Source of the DNA: Halioglobus sp.
GTDB lineage: Bacteria > Pseudomonadota > Gammaproteobacteria > Pseudomonadales > Halieaceae
Length of the DNA: 64,000 nucleotides
Reading direction: 5' to 3'
NCBI GenBank assembly: GCA_029246385.1
Contig: JAQWNG010000039.1
Location: 1 to 64,000 of the forward strand
The notes beneath the pieces were generated by a model, which did not search any database, was not told where the DNA came from, and was given only the letters and a program-made list of their open reading frames with translations. Made by a program: the position numbers and the translations under genes. Shown piece after piece: positions 25,896-32,867 of the stretch; within the stretch, counting starts at the first letter, position 1, and every line of letters starts with the position of its first letter.

Positions 25896-26396
25896 TTAGA
25901 TTCTTAATAGTGGGTATTCGGTTCTAATCAAATCTGCATTTGTGCACTGTTGCAATAAGGTATCCAGATCACTTCCGTCTGGCAGGACGAGATTAGTGTC
26001 GCTGATTTCACGTAGTGGATACAGTACGAAATTGCGTTGCTGCATGCGCGGGTGTGGGACAGTTAATCGTGTCGAATCAATCTGCAGATCGCCATATAGC
26101 AACAGGTCGATATCGAGGGTGCGAGCTCCCCACCGAACCCCCCGCACACGGCCCTGATTCCTTTCTATCTGTTGTGTGGCGTCCAGCAAGGCCGTCGGAG
26201 ACAGGTCTGTCGCAAGTAACAGTACCGCATTGAGGTAATTAGGTTGTATGCCGGGTCCTACTGCCGCACTGCGATAAAGGCTCGATATTCGCTTAACATC
26301 TATGTCCGGCAGCTGCTCCAGTGCTGTCAGGGCTTTGCGCAATTGATCTTTTGGATCGCACAAATTACTACCGAGACTAATGTAGGCAAATGTCAC
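25896..26396 (-). CDS. folK: 2-amino-4-hydroxy-6-hydroxymethyldihydropteridine diphosphokinase
   Basis: FolK (166 aa) pyrophosphorylates the pterin before condensation with pABA in folate synthesis. It has AYISLGSNL, the NQGRVRGVRWGARTLDIDLLLYG block and VPHPRMQQRNFVL. A GTG start at 26396 overlaps the pcnB stop as GTGA, so the two are coupled. The longer reading into pcnB has no family similarity. Confidence 0.93.
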   Translation of the reverse strand: MTFAYISLGSNLCDPKDQLRKALTALEQLPDIDVKRISSLYRSAAVGPGIQPNYLNAVLLLATDLSPTALLDATQQIERNQGRVRGVRWGARTLDIDLLLYGDLQIDSTRLTVPHPRMQQRNFVLYPLREISDTNLVLPDGSDLDTLLQQCTNADLIRTEYPLLRI

Positions 26397-27790
26397 GGCG
26401 CGGGGTTGGGGCGACGTTTCCGAATTCTTTTGGGTCGCTTGTGGTTGCCCTCTGCAGAGGCCACTTTTTCCATGCGCTGCTCTGGCGACAACGCCTGAAT
26501 CTCCGTCCACCAGCTGCACAGTTCGCCGGTGTCTTCTCCGGCTTGCTCTCGCAGCAGTAGAAAATCATAGGCAGCTCTGAAGCGGCGGTGTTCGATCAGT
26601 TCTAGGGCTTTACGTCCTGTCCGTCGTTGCAGGCGCAATTGAAATTCCCAAATTTCCCGCATTGGCTGGCTAAAACGACGGGGTATAGCGATGTGCTTAA
26701 CGGCTTCTATGACAGCGCTCTGTCCCGCATTATGCATTGCCACCATGGGCGCCTCGCCGCTGCCCTCAAGCACCGCAAATTGCTTGCTGACAATTGGCCA
26801 CAGTAGGGCCGCGAGAATAAAGGCCGGTGTCACATGCTTGCCCTCGGAAATACGCTCGTCGGTGTTGCCCATGGCAGCTTGAACTAATGCTCGTGTTGTC
26901 TCGTCCTGTTGAATGCATCTGCTTGTGCCTGGGAAAAGGTACTGCAGTAGATTATATTCCAGAAGATTGTCCAGCGTTCTTGCGGCGCTTCCTGCGAGGA
27001 AAAGTTTCAAGAATTCATCAAACAACCGCGCAGCGGGAATTTCTGCGAGCAGGTGCGCGCAGCGAGGAATAGCCTCAGCTGTCTGTTGATCAATACTGAA
27101 ATCGAGTTTGGCTGCAAAACGAACCACACGCAGCATACGCACAGGGTCTTCTGTGTAGCGCTGCTCTGGGTTGCCGATAACACAAATTGTACGATTTTTG
27201 AGATCTTGAATACCTTGGAGGTGATCAAACACTTCGAACTTTCCGGAATCGTAATACAGGGCGTTTACACTGAGATCGCGTCGTGCAGCGTCTTCTTCCA
27301 GAGTGCCGTAGACATTATCTCGAAGCAGAAGACCACTGGCGGACTGCCGAGAGTGGTTGCCCCCCTTTTTGTCGTGTCGACTCTCTTTGGTTTTGCTGTC
27401 GTGGTGGCCGCGAAAGGTGGTTACCTCAATTATCTCGCGACCAAAACGGACATGCACAATTCGAAAGCGACGACCAATGATGCGGGAATTACGAAACAGT
27501 GCTGTTACCGCTTCTGGTGTAGCATCTGTCGCGATATCAAAATCCTTGGGACATCCGCCGAGCAACAAGTCACGAACTGCGCCCCCAACGAGATAGGCCT
27601 GAAATCCACCGCTACGTAACCGCGACATAACCTTAAGTGCGCCGTCGCTGATATTTTTGCGGGATATACAGTGTTGATCCCTAGGGATTATGTCCAAACG
27701 AATTAGAGCCTGTTGAAGAAAGTCGACCGGATATAAGTCTACCACAGAAGTGATCACGCTGCCGTTGACTTGGGCAGCAACTGAGGGCAA
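26393..27790 (-). CDS. pcnB: Poly(A) polymerase I
   Basis: PcnB (about 465 aa) adds 3' poly(A) tails that mark RNAs for decay. The nucleotidyltransferase core has YLVGGAVRDLLLGGCPKDFDIATDA, RRFRIVHVRFG and RRDLSVNALYY. The C-terminus is basic (KRPKRIRKRRPNP). No ATG or GTG lies near the 5' end of the open frame. The first candidates are TTG 27790 and ATT 27796; GTGs occur 12 and 16 codons later. E. coli pcnB itself uses a rare AUU start. The frame opens right after the hairpin of the small-RNA region, so expression may be linked to it. Confidence 0.92.
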   Translation of the reverse strand: MPSVAAQVNGSVITSVVDLYPVDFLQQALIRLDIIPRDQHCISRKNISDGALKVMSRLRSGGFQAYLVGGAVRDLLLGGCPKDFDIATDATPEAVTALFRNSRIIGRRFRIVHVRFGREIIEVTTFRGHHDSKTKESRHDKKGGNHSRQSASGLLLRDNVYGTLEEDAARRDLSVNALYYDSGKFEVFDHLQGIQDLKNRTICVIGNPEQRYTEDPVRMLRVVRFAAKLDFSIDQQTAEAIPRCAHLLAEIPAARLFDEFLKLFLAGSAARTLDNLLEYNLLQYLFPGTSRCIQQDETTRALVQAAMGNTDERISEGKHVTPAFILAALLWPIVSKQFAVLEGSGEAPMVAMHNAGQSAVIEAVKHIAIPRRFSQPMREIWEFQLRLQRRTGRKALELIEHRRFRAAYDFLLLREQAGEDTGELCSWWTEIQALSPEQRMEKVASAEGNHKRPKRIRKRRPNPAP

Positions 27791-27880
27791 AAGAATGGGG
27801 AAACAATGTTCCCCTCCCAGATCTTCGCTTAGGTGTTATTGTTATGTCCGTAGACTATTATTGTTATTGGTATGATCAAA
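27791..27880 (-). ncRNA. CrcZ-like small RNA, second copy
   Basis: Read on the minus strand, this copy has CA motifs ACCAATAACAATAATAG (27854-27872) and CATAACAATAACACC (27832-27846). AAGATCTGGGAGG follows, then a hairpin GGGGAA/TTCCCC (27797-27814) and CTTTT. It aligns over its length with the copy at 27963-28058, including the AGATCTGG-to-hairpin segment. AAYAAYAA motifs bind Hfq/Crc in CrcZ of Pseudomonas. I see no separate promoter, so it may be the 3' half of one transcript of about 270 nt. Confidence 0.65.
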
Positions 27881-27962
27881 ATCAGGCGGGTTTTGAACGT
27901 TTTACTGTCCCGAGGGCCTAAAAAGACATATCGTCAGTAGCCTGCGGGTCCCGCGGAATAAA

Positions 27963-27992
27963 TCACAAAAAATGAAGGGAAGATATCTTCCC
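27963..27992 (-). terminator. Terminator-like hairpin of the first CrcZ-like copy
   Basis: A perfect 16-nt palindrome (27977-27992) is followed on the minus strand by TTCATTTTTT. A central 2-4 nt must stay unpaired as the loop, leaving about 6 bp. Confidence 0.6.
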
Positions 27993-28058
27993 CCATCCAG
28001 ATCCTTATCACGTCCTGTTATTTTTATTACAGCAGGTATTATTGTTATTGTTCTACTG
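27963..28058 (-). ncRNA. CrcZ-like small RNA, first copy
   Basis: Downstream of a sigma-54-type promoter the minus strand reads AGAACAATAACAATAATACC, then GTAATAAAAATAAC, then GGATCTGGATGGG. It ends in a perfect palindromic hairpin GGGAAGATATCTTCCC (27977-27992) followed by TTCATTTTTTG. Position (between cbrB and pcnB, same strand), promoter type and AAYAAYAA motifs match CrcZ, the decoy RNA made by CbrAB that sequesters Hfq/Crc. The Pseudomonas RNA is near 400 nt, so this unit alone would be short. The start is inferred from the promoter. Confidence 0.72.
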
Positions 28059-28068
28059 CATAATAGAT

Positions 28069-28084
28069 AGCATATTCCGTGCCA
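28069..28084 (-). promoter_or_regulatory. Sigma-54 (RpoN) promoter of the CrcZ-like RNA
   Basis: The minus strand reads TGGCACGGAATATGCT, with GG and GC separated by exactly 10 nt as required for the -24/-12 elements. TGGCACG is a full match to the -24 consensus. It lies 125 nt downstream of the cbrB stop and points toward the CA-motif region. CbrB-type activators use this class of promoter. The CbrB-binding sites, expected upstream at 28100-28200, cannot be assigned by eye. Confidence 0.8.
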
Positions 28085-28208
28085 GATTAAATTAATATAA
28101 TTTAATCAGGGGTTTACGGTTTTAAAGGCGGGGCAGAGGCAGCAGGAAAGGTCTATTTTGTTACTAAACTACTCCAATTTGAGGTGTATATCCGCGCGAG
28201 GGTAACGG

Positions 28209-29642
28209 TTATTTGTCCTCAGTAGCGGTGATTTTGGCTCGGCTATTCACATTGCCCTTATTTCTGGGCATACCAAATCGTTGGCGCCGCTCCCACAGGC
28301 ATTTGCGACTGACACCGAGCTTTTGGGCGAGCTCCGTTTCGCTCATTGAATCTTGGTGTTCTAGCACGAAGCGCTGAAAATAATCTTCCAGAGACAGGTC
28401 CTCTCCCGGGTCATGATTGGTCTTAGCGGTAATAGGGCTGGTCGAGTTATTAGAGTTCTGCTGCCCGCGAATGCGGTTGATATTGACTAACTCAAGATCA
28501 ATGCCAAGTGTTTGGTTGTCGATCTCTTTGCCGTTTGAGAGGATGACCGCCCGTTCGATGGCGTGTTCCAGCTCTCTGATATTGCCCGGCCATTGGTAGG
28601 TTGTAATGGCTTGGATAGCGCGGGGAGACAACCGCATAAGAGTTTTTCCAGCACGCGCCGTCTGGGCTTCTAATATACGCTCGGCTAGGTAAAGGATATC
28701 TTTGCCCCGCTCCCTCAGTGGAGGCAGCGCCAAACAAAGGACATTAATCCGATAGAATAGGTCCTTGCGGAACAATCCCTCCGCTGCCAGGCTTTGAAGA
28801 TTGCGGTGGGTAGCGCAGATAAGTCGAACATTGACCTTACGGGAATGTACCGATCCTATGCGACGAATTTCTCCCTCTTGGATAAAGCGCAGCAGCCTTG
28901 CTTGTGCCTCCATTGGGAGCTCGCCAATTTCATCCAAAAACAGCGTGCCACCATCAGCAGCCTCGATAAGACCCATACGGTTTGCATCGGCACCTGTGAA
29001 TGCGCCTTTTTCATAACCAAATAGTTCAGACTCGATGAGGGTTTCGGGAATTGCTGCGCAGTTGACAGAAATCATGGTCTTACCAGCGCGCAGACTGCTC
29101 TCGTGTACGCTGCGCGCCACCAACTCCTTGCCCGTCCCCGTCTCACCTAGTACCAGCACTGTAGAGTCCGTGGGCGCCATTTTTTTGATGTGCTCCAAGA
29201 GCACACGCATCGCGGGACAATTGCCGATTATGCCGTCCAGCTTAGAGGGTGTCCCGCTGTTAGTGGCGAGTTCCTCTGGAGATCGACCGGTGGGGTGGTC
29301 TGCAATGATACGTTGCACGGCGATAACCATATCGCCGTGATCAAAGGGCTTGGCGATATAGTCCACTGCGCCCATCCGCATGGAATCTACGGCTGATCGC
29401 AGGCTGGCATAGCTGGTCATAATTAATACGGGTACATCTCCCGCTTTCTTGATCAGATCCGTACCGGGTGCGCCAGGGAGGCGTAAGTCACTGATGACGA
29501 GGTCAAAATCGATAAAAGTGTGATCTTTTTCCGCTTCCTGCACCGACCCAGCTTCACTGACCTCAAAGTCGTGACGTTCCAGCAGGCGGCGCAGCGCAGT
29601 TCTGATGACGGACTCATCTTCGACAATGAGGATCTTATGCAT
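28209..29642 (-). CDS. cbrB: Sigma-54-dependent response regulator CbrB
   Basis: This 477-residue NtrC-type regulator has a receiver domain with acceptor D52 (VISDLRLPG). The AAA+ domain has Walker A GETGTGKE (166-173), the sigma-54 loop GAFTGA (213-218) and [14 protein letters not shown] Fis-type helix-turn-helix closes the protein ([24 protein letters not shown]). With CbrA it controls use of carbon and nitrogen sources. The assignment as CbrB rests on the neighbours: cbrA upstream, a CrcZ-like RNA and pcnB downstream, all on one strand. Confidence 0.92.
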
Positions 29643-29728: not shown

Positions 29729-32701
29729 TTACATTTCAACGTCCGGCCCGTAACAGGCGGACGCTAAGTACAATGTAACCCGGGTGCCGCATTGAACATC
29801 CGGTGTACTCGTAAGATGAACTTTGCCATTCATATCATCCATGATGCTAAATACCAGCGCTAGCCCCAGTCCGGTGCCGACACCTGGGTCTTTGGTAGTA
29901 AAAAAAGGCTCGAAAACCTGCGATTGCAGTGCTGGTGGAATGCCGCTACCGTTATCTTCGACCTCAATTTGCACCTGATCACCTCTCGTGGTGGCCCGTA
30001 TATGCACCTCCCCGTTGTCGTCGCAAGCGTCTCTGGCGTTACCCAGCAGGTTGATAAAGACCTGCAGTAGACGTTGGTTATCTGCTAAAGCAAGTAACTC
30101 GCGGTCGCACTGATTGTTAAACTGTACTAGCTTGGCTTCTCTGTCTAATGCCAACAGATGAATGGCCTCGTCGACACAGTCGGCTAGGTTGGCTGGCGCC
30201 AATGTCGTCTTTTCAAAATAGGAACCTGTGTGCGAAAAGTTCATTAGTGACTCCACTATTCGCGTGACCCGACTGGTTTGCTTGAGAATATCCTGCGCCA
30301 TGTAGCGGATTTCCTTGGGGTCTGATTCGTACTCGAGATTCTGTGCCAGACAGGCGATGCCAGTAACCGGGTTGCCGATTTCATGAGCGACCCCAGCGGC
30401 GAGACGACCAATTGACGCCAAGCGTTCGTTTTGGAGTAGCTCTTCCTCCAGCAACTCGATTTCGGTAATATCTTCCACCATGATGACTGTATTGCGGTGA
30501 TGATTTTCTTTAATCAACGTTTTATGCAGATCGACCCAGCGTGAAGGACTGTCCTCCATCGTGACTTCTTTCTTCACGACCGTTTCAGTGTCTCCTTGTA
30601 GAAACCCTTCAAGAATAGCGCTCCATGGATGAGGGATGTCGCTCAATAAAGATCCCAGAACATCAGTTGGTTCAATTCCTGTGATCCGCTGCATGCTCTG
30701 GTTCCACATGAGTAACTCGCCGTCGGCGCTAATTGAACAGGCGCCTATGGGCAGTTTATCCAGTGTTTCTCTGTGGTGTCTTCGCAGATTATCTAGGTCC
30801 GCGGCCAATCCCGTAAAATGGGGTTGGCTCTGATCAAGTGTCCGCTCCATCAGGTGGATGTCCTCGGCATCGGTGTGCGCGCTAGGCAACAGCGGAATGC
30901 GGCCTTCGATGATGCGGTGGGCGACCGCAGGACCCAGTAGCCCCGAAAGATTTGCTTCTAGTCGGGCTCGCAGGCGCCTCAGAGCATAAGGTCTGTTCTC
31001 GGAGGGCGAAAATTGCAGTTCACTTAGGGCTTTTTCAACTTCAGACTTTGCAGTGTTCTCTCCTAAAGATAGCGCCAGTCGTTGGCTGAATTCTGCAGGG
31101 CTATAGACGGACAATATCCGACGTGTGGGGCGGGCGAGGTCGTCCATGGAACAAATTTCCGCGGCAATTTTTTCTTCGTCTGAATTCCTTCTGGTTACAA
31201 CTGAAATGGCGATGAACAAGGCGACATTGATGCCCAATGAAACCAAAGCAGTGGCTGTCGACAACTTCTTGCTCTCTCCGAGAACCGCAGTGTAGAGCGA
31301 GGTGAGTAGCTCCGGGCTTTGTACGCCGAACAGTGGTAAAAGCATTGAAAAGAACCAAATCCCCAATCCGCCGCTGAGTCCAACGAGGAGGCCGGTGCGG
31401 TTGGCTCGCGGCCAATAGGGCGTCGCAATGATGCCCGGCAGAAACTGAAGCGTGCCAATGAACGCCACCAGTGCCAGCTGCGAGAGGCTTTGCCGACCGT
31501 TCAGTGTGGTAAAAAAGATATATCCAGCAACAATAAGAATCGTAATGAGACCCCGTCGCAGCCATTTGAGTTGGACATAAATATCTTGCCCTTTATTGAT
31601 TTGCAGCGGACTAAAAGGCAGCACCAGATGATTGAGACACATGTTAGATAGTGCCAGCGTAGTAATAATAATAGTTGCGCTGGAGGCAGATAAGCCAGCG
31701 ACAAAGGCGGCGGTACTGATGGTGCCTGACTGAAGCGCCATGCCAATAGCGAGGCCGGTGTAGTCCATCGGCAGCTCATGGCCCAACTTAATCCCTGCCC
31801 ACGTCACCGGCAGAATGGGCAGACTCAGTAACAATAGATACAGTGGCAGTCCCCAAGTGGCAATGCGCAAGCCGCGGCTGTCGTTATTTTCGGCAAAAGC
31901 CATATGAAAGATGTGGGGCATGCACACTGCACCCGCAAAAAATATGAGCAGCAGAGCACGGGCATCATCGCCCTGAATAGGTTGGGTCAGTTGATCCCTC
32001 GTTTGCGGGTTTTCAAGTAACCACCGCTCCAAGCCCCCAATGCCACCGAATACAGCGTAAATCGCCGCGAGTAGCAGCACCAACATAGCGCTTAACTTGA
32101 CTACCGATTCAAACGCGATGGCAGTCACTAAACCCGTGTTGCGATGTTGAGATGATACATGGCGTGTCCCGAACAAAATGGAGAACACTGTAATGATCAC
32201 GCAGAAAAGAAAGGCCAGCAGGTTATCCCTATTCCCACCGAACGATTCGGTCGCGCTGTCTCCTGAAAGGATATGGATGCTCTCGGCTACTGCCTGGATT
32301 TGTAGCGCGAGCAGCGGAAGTAAAGTAATGCACATCGCAACGGTCACTGCAGACCCAACCCAAGGGCTGCGAAAACGGAATGTGAGAACGTCTGCTAAAG
32401 AGGCTAATTGATAGACTCTACACAGCCGCAAGAGAGGCATGAGGAGTATCAGAGGCAACACAAACATTAAGACTACGCCGATGTAGTACAGTAGAAAGTT
32501 GTAGCCAAACTGATGGGCCATAGCGATCACGCCATTGCTGGCCATGGCACCAGCGAATACACCCAGCGACAGAACGTAGACGGCGGGGTGATGGGTAATG
32601 CGTTGTGGAATGATCCCGCGGTCGGCCAGATGAGCCACTGCAAATAAGCCGGTAAGGTAAGCAATAATAACCAGTAGTATTTGAGTAAGGCTAAAGATCA
32701 T
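29729..32701 (-). CDS. cbrA: Sensor histidine kinase CbrA with SLC5-type transporter domain
   Basis: This is a 990-residue protein. The first 500 residues form a sodium:solute symporter-like membrane domain of about 13 helices. A linker of STAC-like position follows, then a PAS domain (LPIGACSISADGELLMWNQS). The kinase core has phospho-acceptor H773 in GVAHEIGNPVTG and an ATPase domain with NLLGNARDACDD, DNGSGIP and GTGLGLAL. The length matches Pseudomonas CbrA (about 980). The transporter domain of CbrA is linked to histidine uptake in Pseudomonas; whether this one transports is unknown. Its start overlaps the small upstream gene by 11 nt. Confidence 0.94.
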   Translation of the reverse strand: MIFSLTQILLVIIAYLTGLFAVAHLADRGIIPQRITHHPAVYVLSLGVFAGAMASNGVIAMAHQFGYNFLLYYIGVVLMFVLPLILLMPLLRLCRVYQLASLADVLTFRFRSPWVGSAVTVAMCITLLPLLALQIQAVAESIHILSGDSATESFGGNRDNLLAFLFCVIITVFSILFGTRHVSSQHRNTGLVTAIAFESVVKLSAMLVLLLAAIYAVFGGIGGLERWLLENPQTRDQLTQPIQGDDARALLLIFFAGAVCMPHIFHMAFAENNDSRGLRIATWGLPLYLLLLSLPILPVTWAGIKLGHELPMDYTGLAIGMALQSGTISTAAFVAGLSASSATIIITTLALSNMCLNHLVLPFSPLQINKGQDIYVQLKWLRRGLITILIVAGYIFFTTLNGRQSLSQLALVAFIGTLQFLPGIIATPYWPRANRTGLLVGLSGGLGIWFFSMLLPLFGVQSPELLTSLYTAVLGESKKLSTATALVSLGINVALFIAISVVTRRNSDEEKIAAEICSMDDLARPTRRILSVYSPAEFSQRLALSLGENTAKSEVEKALSELQFSPSENRPYALRRLRARLEANLSGLLGPAVAHRIIEGRIPLLPSAHTDAEDIHLMERTLDQSQPHFTGLAADLDNLRRHHRETLDKLPIGACSISADGELLMWNQSMQRITGIEPTDVLGSLLSDIPHPWSAILEGFLQGDTETVVKKEVTMEDSPSRWVDLHKTLIKENHHRNTVIMVEDITEIELLEEELLQNERLASIGRLAAGVAHEIGNPVTGIACLAQNLEYESDPKEIRYMAQDILKQTSRVTRIVESLMNFSHTGSYFEKTTLAPANLADCVDEAIHLLALDREAKLVQFNNQCDRELLALADNQRLLQVFINLLGNARDACDDNGEVHIRATTRGDQVQIEVEDNGSGIPPALQSQVFEPFFTTKDPGVGTGLGLALVFSIMDDMNGKVHLTSTPDVQCGTRVTLYLASACYGPDVEM

Positions 32702-32867
32702 CTGGATATCTCTTGCGCTGGTTCCAGTAGGCGGCGGCCACGATCAACAGCCATAACTGGTAAGGCCGGTACCATGCAATTTCCGAGCTGGTCATCCAGC
32801 CCTCGATCGTGGGAAAAAAAATCAACACAATGCCGACAGTCAGTAGTAGGAAGCGATTGATATACAT
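32691..32867 (-). CDS. Small membrane protein overlapping cbrA (CbrX-like)
   Basis: This short gene encodes 58 residues: MYINRFLLLTVGIVLIFFP, a polar link, then a second hydrophobic stretch (PYQLWLLIVAAAYW) and a charged tail ending YPDDL. AAGGGG lies about 10 nt before its ATG. Its last codons overlap the cbrA start by 11 nt in another frame, so translation is likely coupled. Pseudomonas has a small gene, cbrX, in the same place that affects cbrA translation. Identity with CbrX is inferred from position. An overlapping 84-codon frame on the same strand has no membrane character and is rejected. Confidence 0.75.
   Translation of the reverse strand: MYINRFLLLTVGIVLIFFPTIEGWMTSSEIAWYRPYQLWLLIVAAAYWNQRKRYPDDL

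Follow-up and report, generated by a model that had tools for sequence, protein, structure and literature searches.

A predicted CrcZ-type decoy RNA gene with two copies of its 3' module between cbrB and pcnB in Halieaceae

Does the gap between cbrB and pcnB of a Halioglobus genome hold a CrcZ-type RNA and, if so, does it hold one or two? CrcZ of Pseudomonas aeruginosa is described, in an excerpt of PMC4063720, as a 407-nt RNA with six A-rich stretches that binds and titrates Hfq at the distal face. According to the parts of a 2022 review covered here (PMC8871633), CbrAB is unique to Pseudomonadaceae, with Pseudomonas and Azotobacter the exclusive hosts. We analyzed a 64-kb stretch of contig JAQWNG010000039.1 (hereafter, the window), for which a first-pass annotation had proposed a tandem pair of CrcZ-like RNAs. 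Our results point, with a probability of roughly 80%, to a CrcZ-type decoy RNA gene carrying two copies of a 3' module. The duplication in the original proposal stood, but the notion that each unit is a whole CrcZ did not; each resembles one CrcZ 3' module.

The minus strand reads, in order, a cbrX-like open reading frame (ORF), cbrA, cbrB, CbrB subsites, an integration host factor (IHF)-like site, a sigma-54 site, the A-rich units, and pcnB. The protein genes around the gap, which spans ~420 nt, were as follows:

26393–27790, minus strand: pcnB, poly(A) polymerase I (TIGR01942, 514.5 bits, match from residue 34)
28209–29642, minus strand: cbrB, 477 aa, sigma-54-dependent response regulator (profile matches)
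29729–32701, minus strand: cbrA, 990 aa, SLC5-STAC-type sensor with PAS and histidine kinase (PDB 10ED match, Pfam)
32691–32867, minus strand: cbrX-like ORF, 58 aa, overlapping the cbrA start by 11 nt

Residues 1–609 of CbrA matched 10ED at 555.9 bits, a structure that the available part of PMC13022988 gives as the SLC5-STAC region of P. putida CbrXA. Pfam assigned PAS, HisKA, and HATPase_c domains to CbrA and no transporter domain at E 0.001. The 58-aa ORF had no Pfam match at E 0.1 and is termed cbrX-like by size and place alone; P. putida CbrX has 58 aa and a 17-nt overlap with cbrA (PMC8871633, in part). Taken together, the window encodes a CbrA that joins SLC5-STAC to a kinase, a cbrX-like ORF upstream of it, and a CbrB of the sigma-54 activator type, with the RNA locus in the position expected of crcZ, between cbrB and pcnB. 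The best cbrB copies of relatives were at most 90% identical. The real pcnB start is probably downstream of the TTG at 27790.

We then asked whether the gap contains the promoter elements of a CrcZ gene. CbrB subsites are given as F-type (TGTTAC) and R-type (GTAACA) in an excerpt of PMC6296734. The following candidate elements were located upstream of the units:

28069–28084, minus strand: sigma-54 promoter TGGCACGGAATATGCT, 0 mismatches to TGGCACGN4WTGCW
28104–28116, minus strand: IHF-like site TAAACCCCTGATT, 1 mismatch to the IHF consensus
28159–28164, minus strand: CbrB R-type subsite GTAACA (PMC6296734, in part)
28202–28207, minus strand: CbrB F-type subsite CGTTAC, 1 mismatch to TGTTAC (PMC6296734, in part)

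The sigma-54 site reported by the first-pass annotation was the sole perfect match in the window. Sites with at most one mismatch occurred at chance level there (2 versus 1.66 expected), so the credibility of this site comes from its conservation behind cbrB. To quantify conservation, we compared 145 genomes, 18 of them from the window's genus (its own genome included). Fifteen lacked a fetched region and one (G131) was dropped for having no cbrB end, leaving 129 regions, of which 127 were long enough for the strict search. The strict site was present in 116 of these 127, with a density of 0.77 per 400 bp behind cbrB versus 0.11 in cbrB coding DNA. Transcription would be expected to start near 28059.

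Within the 190 nt preceding the sigma-54 site, no 6-mer was shared by more promoter regions than GTAACA itself (106 of 117). Exact F and R subsites totaled 208 across these regions compared to 11.9 ± 3.4 in mononucleotide shuffles. The exact F subsite was rare in the family that we took as Halieaceae (8 of 80), where CGTTAC occurred in its place. At ≤ 1 mismatch, the IHF-like site was found in 48 of 80 family promoters (versus 13.1 in shuffles, maximum 22), and 43 of the 48 were at one position. The locus therefore has, by its sequence, the sigma-54 promoter and upstream CbrB subsites of a CrcZ gene.

The AAYAAYAA motifs claimed earlier were present in the gap downstream of the promoter, as six overlapping words; the window had 14 versus 8.4 expected. 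Across 82 regions, 263 such words followed the sigma-54 site within 250 nt, compared to 6 in the equally long stretch before it. Two aligned units, each with AGGATCTGG or AGATCTGG plus a hairpin, were recovered as the first-pass annotation had described:

28028–28060, minus strand: unit-1 5' stem-loop, 8 bp (28060–28053 with 28035–28028), enclosing the first A-rich motif (28049–28039)
28018–28028, minus strand: second A-rich motif of unit 1, AATAAAAATAA (first-unit alignment)
27967–28059, minus strand: unit 1, CrcZ 3'-type module (model match 27969–28062)
27967–28005, minus strand: AGGATCTGG (28005–27997), hairpin 1 (27994–27975), and a T-run (terminator-like hairpin call)
27876–27897, minus strand: inverted repeat TTCAAAA / TTTTGA, immediately ahead of the A-rich motif of unit 2
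27789–27881, minus strand: unit 2, second module (unit-1 model match), with A-rich motifs at 27868–27858 and 27845–27836
27797–27824, minus strand: AGATCTGG (27824–27817) and hairpin 2 (27814–27797) (terminator-like hairpin call)

The two units together have four A-rich (ARN)n motif sites, and several such motifs are characteristic of CrcZ. Six overlapping terminator-like calls fell at the two hairpins, compared to a mean of 0.8 in shuffles, and GATCTGG preceded both. Across the family, GACCUGGAUGGGGAA (GAUCUGG here), before and in both hairpins, was nearly invariant. An RNA running from the expected start through the hairpin-2 tail would measure ~272 nt, short of the ~400 nt of CrcZ. The coordinates fit the 95- and 270-nt sizes that had been predicted, and the units are indeed shorter than the known 407-nt RNA.

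Having delimited the units, we sought to determine whether they are copies of one another. The Halieaceae regions provided 77 first and 57 second units. The alignment of 58 first units displayed two nearly invariant AATAAnAATAA motifs followed by a GGAnCTGG...GGGG hairpin, and the 57 aligned second units repeated this order. A covariance model built from first units alone found the window's unit 2 with 55.8 bits (E 9.6e-8), in agreement with the claimed tandem duplication. Both matches of this model in the whole genome fell in the cbrB–pcnB gap, and whole-genome searches with the Rfam CrcZ and unit-1 models found no CrcZ paralogue elsewhere. The cognate arms of the unit-1 5' stem scored 12.15 against a permuted maximum of 10.83, with 0 of 5000 permutations as good (75 of 77 units). 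The unit-2 5' stem was unsupported, as 1041 of 5000 permutations were as good (45 of 57 units). In the family alignment, double-sided changes occurred in 5 of 10 pairs of the unit-2 hairpin and 0 of 5 pairs of the unit-1 hairpin. RNAalifold found no pair changed on both sides in the unit-1 and spacer alignments. We also considered a small ORF (ATG GAC CTG GAT GGG GAA) that appears in unit 1 of some relatives. Its ATG is absent both from the window's genome and from the sequence before hairpin 2, and, judging by eye, we proposed no peptide for this reason.

How closely do these units resemble CrcZ of Pseudomonas? Among Rfam families, CrcZ (RF01675) was the best in the gap (27.5 bits, E 1.8e-5, 601 bases searched), although the score did not reach the gathering threshold of 95 bits. 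The next-best place in the genome had an E-value of 0.43. Conversely, of 16 Pseudomonas-type CrcZ loci, the unit-1 model weakly matched 9 at the 3' end, at like positions (E 0.007–0.084), and had no match at E 0.1 in the other 7; these loci belong to a family (f21) taken as the Pseudomonas group from its RF01675 scores. The 3' end of Pseudomonas-type CrcZ has a stem-loop with an A-rich motif, a second A-rich motif, and a GGGGAGC hairpin. In some Halieaceae first units, the Rfam match was limited to model positions ~271–380, which are the 3' part. Each unit therefore resembles, as far as its sequence goes, one CrcZ 3' module rather than a whole CrcZ.

The locus thus shares with Pseudomonas CrcZ its place behind cbrB, a sigma-54 promoter, CbrB subsites, A-rich Hfq motifs, and a 3' module of two A-rich motifs and a G-rich hairpin. 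It differs in predicted size (~95 and 270 nt versus 407), in having four A-rich sites rather than six, in carrying the module twice, in its GAYCUGGAUGGGG-type hairpin sequence, and in scoring below the Rfam cut-off. P. putida, A. vinelandii, and P. syringae possess further CrcZ-like RNAs, CrcY/CrcX, according to the excerpted review (PMC8871633). Those systems likewise have further CrcZ-like RNAs in one genome, whereas here the second copy sits behind the first within a single locus and in most cases lacks a sigma-54 site of its own. Another precedent for crcZ arising from more than one promoter is CrcZ*, which in P. putida and A. vinelandii derives from the processing of a transcript shared by cbrB and crcZ (PMC6292655, in part). 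In contrast to CrcZ*, the read-through proposed here would cross hairpin 1, inside the RNA locus.

A CrcZ-type decoy would require partners, and the genome encodes likely ones. Its Hfq had a best match of 138.7 bits to 1u1s, an Hfq of P. aeruginosa. Four proteins had an exonuclease/endonuclease/phosphatase domain, one of them encoded between pyrE and rph (ribonuclease PH), presumably also the location of crc in Pseudomonas. In the PDB, this protein matched best to 4jg3, a catabolite repression control protein, at 226.6 bits. It scored close to this (220.5 bits) against 2myi, deposited as exodeoxyribonuclease III and presumably a Pseudomonas Crc, and 169 bits against the next exonuclease, which belongs to another group. 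NCBIfam named it exodeoxyribonuclease III (TIGR00633, 187.3 bits, cut-off 99.05) and showed no Crc model. Its paralogue, 40% identical to it, fits true exonucleases better than Crc (310 versus 257). With Crc as its best PDB match and its place between pyrE and rph, we consider the protein Crc-like. By gene and site order together with Hfq and this protein, the sequence agrees with the earlier assertion of a CbrAB–CrcZ locus outside Pseudomonas. Judged by eye, L216 and L218 comprise a likely true exonuclease III together with the Crc-type paralogue, whose catalytic positions are altered.

The signal from possible targets was weak. AAYAAYAAN{3,11}ATG occurred 72 times in the genome versus 48 in the reversed control, a slight enrichment, and 1 of 30 fetched places clearly starts a long ORF (457 aa, P450-like as named by eye). 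For this reason, we name no regulon.

The most likely scenario from this anatomy is that an RNA of 95 to 270 nt is made under the control of CbrB and RpoN and would titrate Hfq–Crc under poor carbon supply. CbrA would then activate CbrB, which, on its F and R subsites and with help from IHF, would drive RpoN polymerase from the site at 28084–28069. The transcript from ~28059 would bear two CrcZ 3' modules, each offering two (ARN)n motifs to the distal face of Hfq ahead of a conserved G-rich hairpin, with the first motif of unit 1 held in a stem-loop. A fraction of transcripts might stop at hairpin 1, giving ~95 nt and two Hfq sites, and read-through of this hairpin would yield ~270 nt and four sites. 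By analogy to Pseudomonas, the RNA would pull Hfq–Crc off A-rich ribosome sites and lift catabolite repression.

Whether one RNA or two are made, and what unit 2 contributes, can be approached through the spacer between the units. Spacers of 40 relatives (90–160 nt) had a mean folding z of –1.60 versus –0.52 for the 110 nt after cbrB. Arms of the inverted repeat before unit 2 matched within genomes (13.36 versus a permuted maximum of 12.37 in 45 of 57 genomes), and seven genomes with gaps of 326–336 nt left 25–27 nt between hairpin 1 and unit 2. Together, these results favor one run-through transcript. The structured spacer and the scant room for a promoter in those seven genomes also suit a single compact CrcZ of ~270 nt with two modules, wherein hairpin 1 serves structure or stability and lets transcription pass, a reading that we take seriously but place somewhat short of even odds. 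It is consistent with the tail after hairpin 1, which averages 5.07 T of 10 in the 57 two-unit genomes and is often TTCAATTTCC, and with the Rfam CrcZ model, in which a like hairpin sits inside an outer stem preceding the T-run. However, 6–8 T of 10 follow hairpin 1 in the window genome's clade of five, like a working terminator, 23 loci have one module only (2 of them truncated where the contig stops), and unit 1 folds well on its own (z –2.78). The fold of the whole 275-nt RNA, in contrast, is just slightly more stable than those of shuffles (z –1.32).

That unit 2 instead has its own promoter seems unlikely. Upstream of unit 2, the window yielded neither a sigma-70-type promoter call nor a strict sigma-54 site, matching the earlier remark that the second copy lacks a visible promoter. 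Across the family, only 1 of 40 spacers had a CbrB subsite, which implies unit 2 is usually without its own CbrB-type promoter. Exceptions that argue for one are genus g15, all 3 genomes of which have a sigma-54 site ahead of unit 2, and two g8 loci (L155 and L157), whose spacers (592 and 518 nt) contain CGTTAC and GTAACA a second time. The g8 spacers look as if the CbrB-binding region was duplicated along with the module. From g8 and g15, we infer that promoter and module were copied as one block to form the tandem and that most Halieaceae subsequently lost the second promoter. A further candidate was TTgGGCAT...TGTTTnnAT, upstream of unit 2 in 17 aligned spacers, but its arms match within genomes in the manner of an RNA hairpin. 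A plain sigma-70 promoter at this element is less likely since the arms pair better within than between genomes, but RNAalifold on these 17 of 40 spacers showed the sequence to be conserved with no double changes, and the element may be either promoter or hairpin. In G071, an additional strict sigma-54 site was set aside as a poor match (CGGCGGGGCTCATGCA).

Unit 2 might also be mainly an Hfq/Crc-responsive 5' leader of pcnB rather than a decoy, which we deem rather improbable. The median distance from the end of hairpin 2 to the extrapolated first PcnB residue is 7 nt over the 57 genomes with two units, and in two genomes where > 500 nt separate the units, unit 2 has kept its place next to pcnB. 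Nevertheless, hairpin 2 is terminator-like in the window's genome, the true PcnB start is probably further down, the module ends 96–328 nt before pcnB in eight single-unit genomes, and the module of unit 2 is also that of the presumed decoy. In the window (27814–27790), hairpin 2 lies almost on the annotated pcnB start, and the decoy RNA may be linked to pcnB expression. An A+T-rich gap and the chance rate of one-mismatch sigma-54-like sites would be expected if the motifs were A-rich intergenic noise with chance hairpins, yet conservation across the family and order speaks against this, leaving it a negligible probability.

Returning to the CrcZ-type decoy gene with a duplicated 3' module, we mapped its distribution with the unit-1 model. 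This covariance search returned 137 matches over 81 Halieaceae sources, the 81st being a 334-base contig end without a match. Two modules were found in 57 of the 80 loci having one, so the tandem layout is common to much of the family, and a single module in 23. Among the Halieaceae matches listed, two genomes (G035 and G046) had theirs on contigs where cbrB was not seen. Across 86 loci of other families, the module was found in Spongiibacter, Neomelitea, and Dasania at E ≤ 0.01, and twice in four loci (L040, L161, L162, and L172) at the same threshold. More broadly, 31 of the 39 families examined in the order carried, behind cbrB, a sigma-54 site that has AAYAAYAA no more than 250 nt away. 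This combination was absent behind cbrB in the other eight (f5, f8, f9, f10, f18, f28, f36, and f42), with f28 represented by a 103-base stub, and pcnB was not seen downstream in every family. Of the 390 genomes covered in the order, 84 matched Rfam CrcZ at E ≤ 0.01 and 19 exceeded its cut-off.

These sequence comparisons suggest the carbon-control circuit extends well beyond Pseudomonas. In contrast to the excerpted review (PMC8871633), a circuit with likely trans factors and promoter sites is found in the marine family Halieaceae, and the origin of Pseudomonas-type catabolite repression becomes testable outside Pseudomonas. We tentatively propose, while regarding it as somewhat doubtful, that CbrAB–CrcZ–Hfq/Crc is ancestral to the whole order and that CrcZ is modular. 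Its 3' module would be a heritable unit copied in tandem with or without a promoter, module number would tune decoy dose, and hairpin 1 of Halieaceae would be a leaky terminator setting the ratio of two-site to four-site decoys. Copying of one module suggests a way for a decoy RNA to grow. Short natural decoys with two or four Hfq motif sites may also serve structural work on Hfq–Crc–RNA.

Crc has been reported in Acinetobacter, with CbrAB left for future work, in the part of PMC8312277 available; Crc outside Pseudomonadaceae is thus already in print. CrcZ is named in the introduction only in the excerpt of PMC5955585. Within open-access literature, CrcZ together with Marinobacter was not found, nor, among the papers listed, was tandem CrcZ, as judged partly by title; subscription journals fell outside this scope. 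In the same literature, CbrA, CbrB, and Oceanospirillales co-occur in marine metatranscript work, and crcZ, cbrB, and Gammaproteobacteria in what are, by title, Pseudomonas studies. Among loci of other families, L161, L162, L179, and L191 (genomes G133, G118, G126, and G094) have two sigma-54 sites in the same gap and may represent two complete CrcZ-type genes in tandem.
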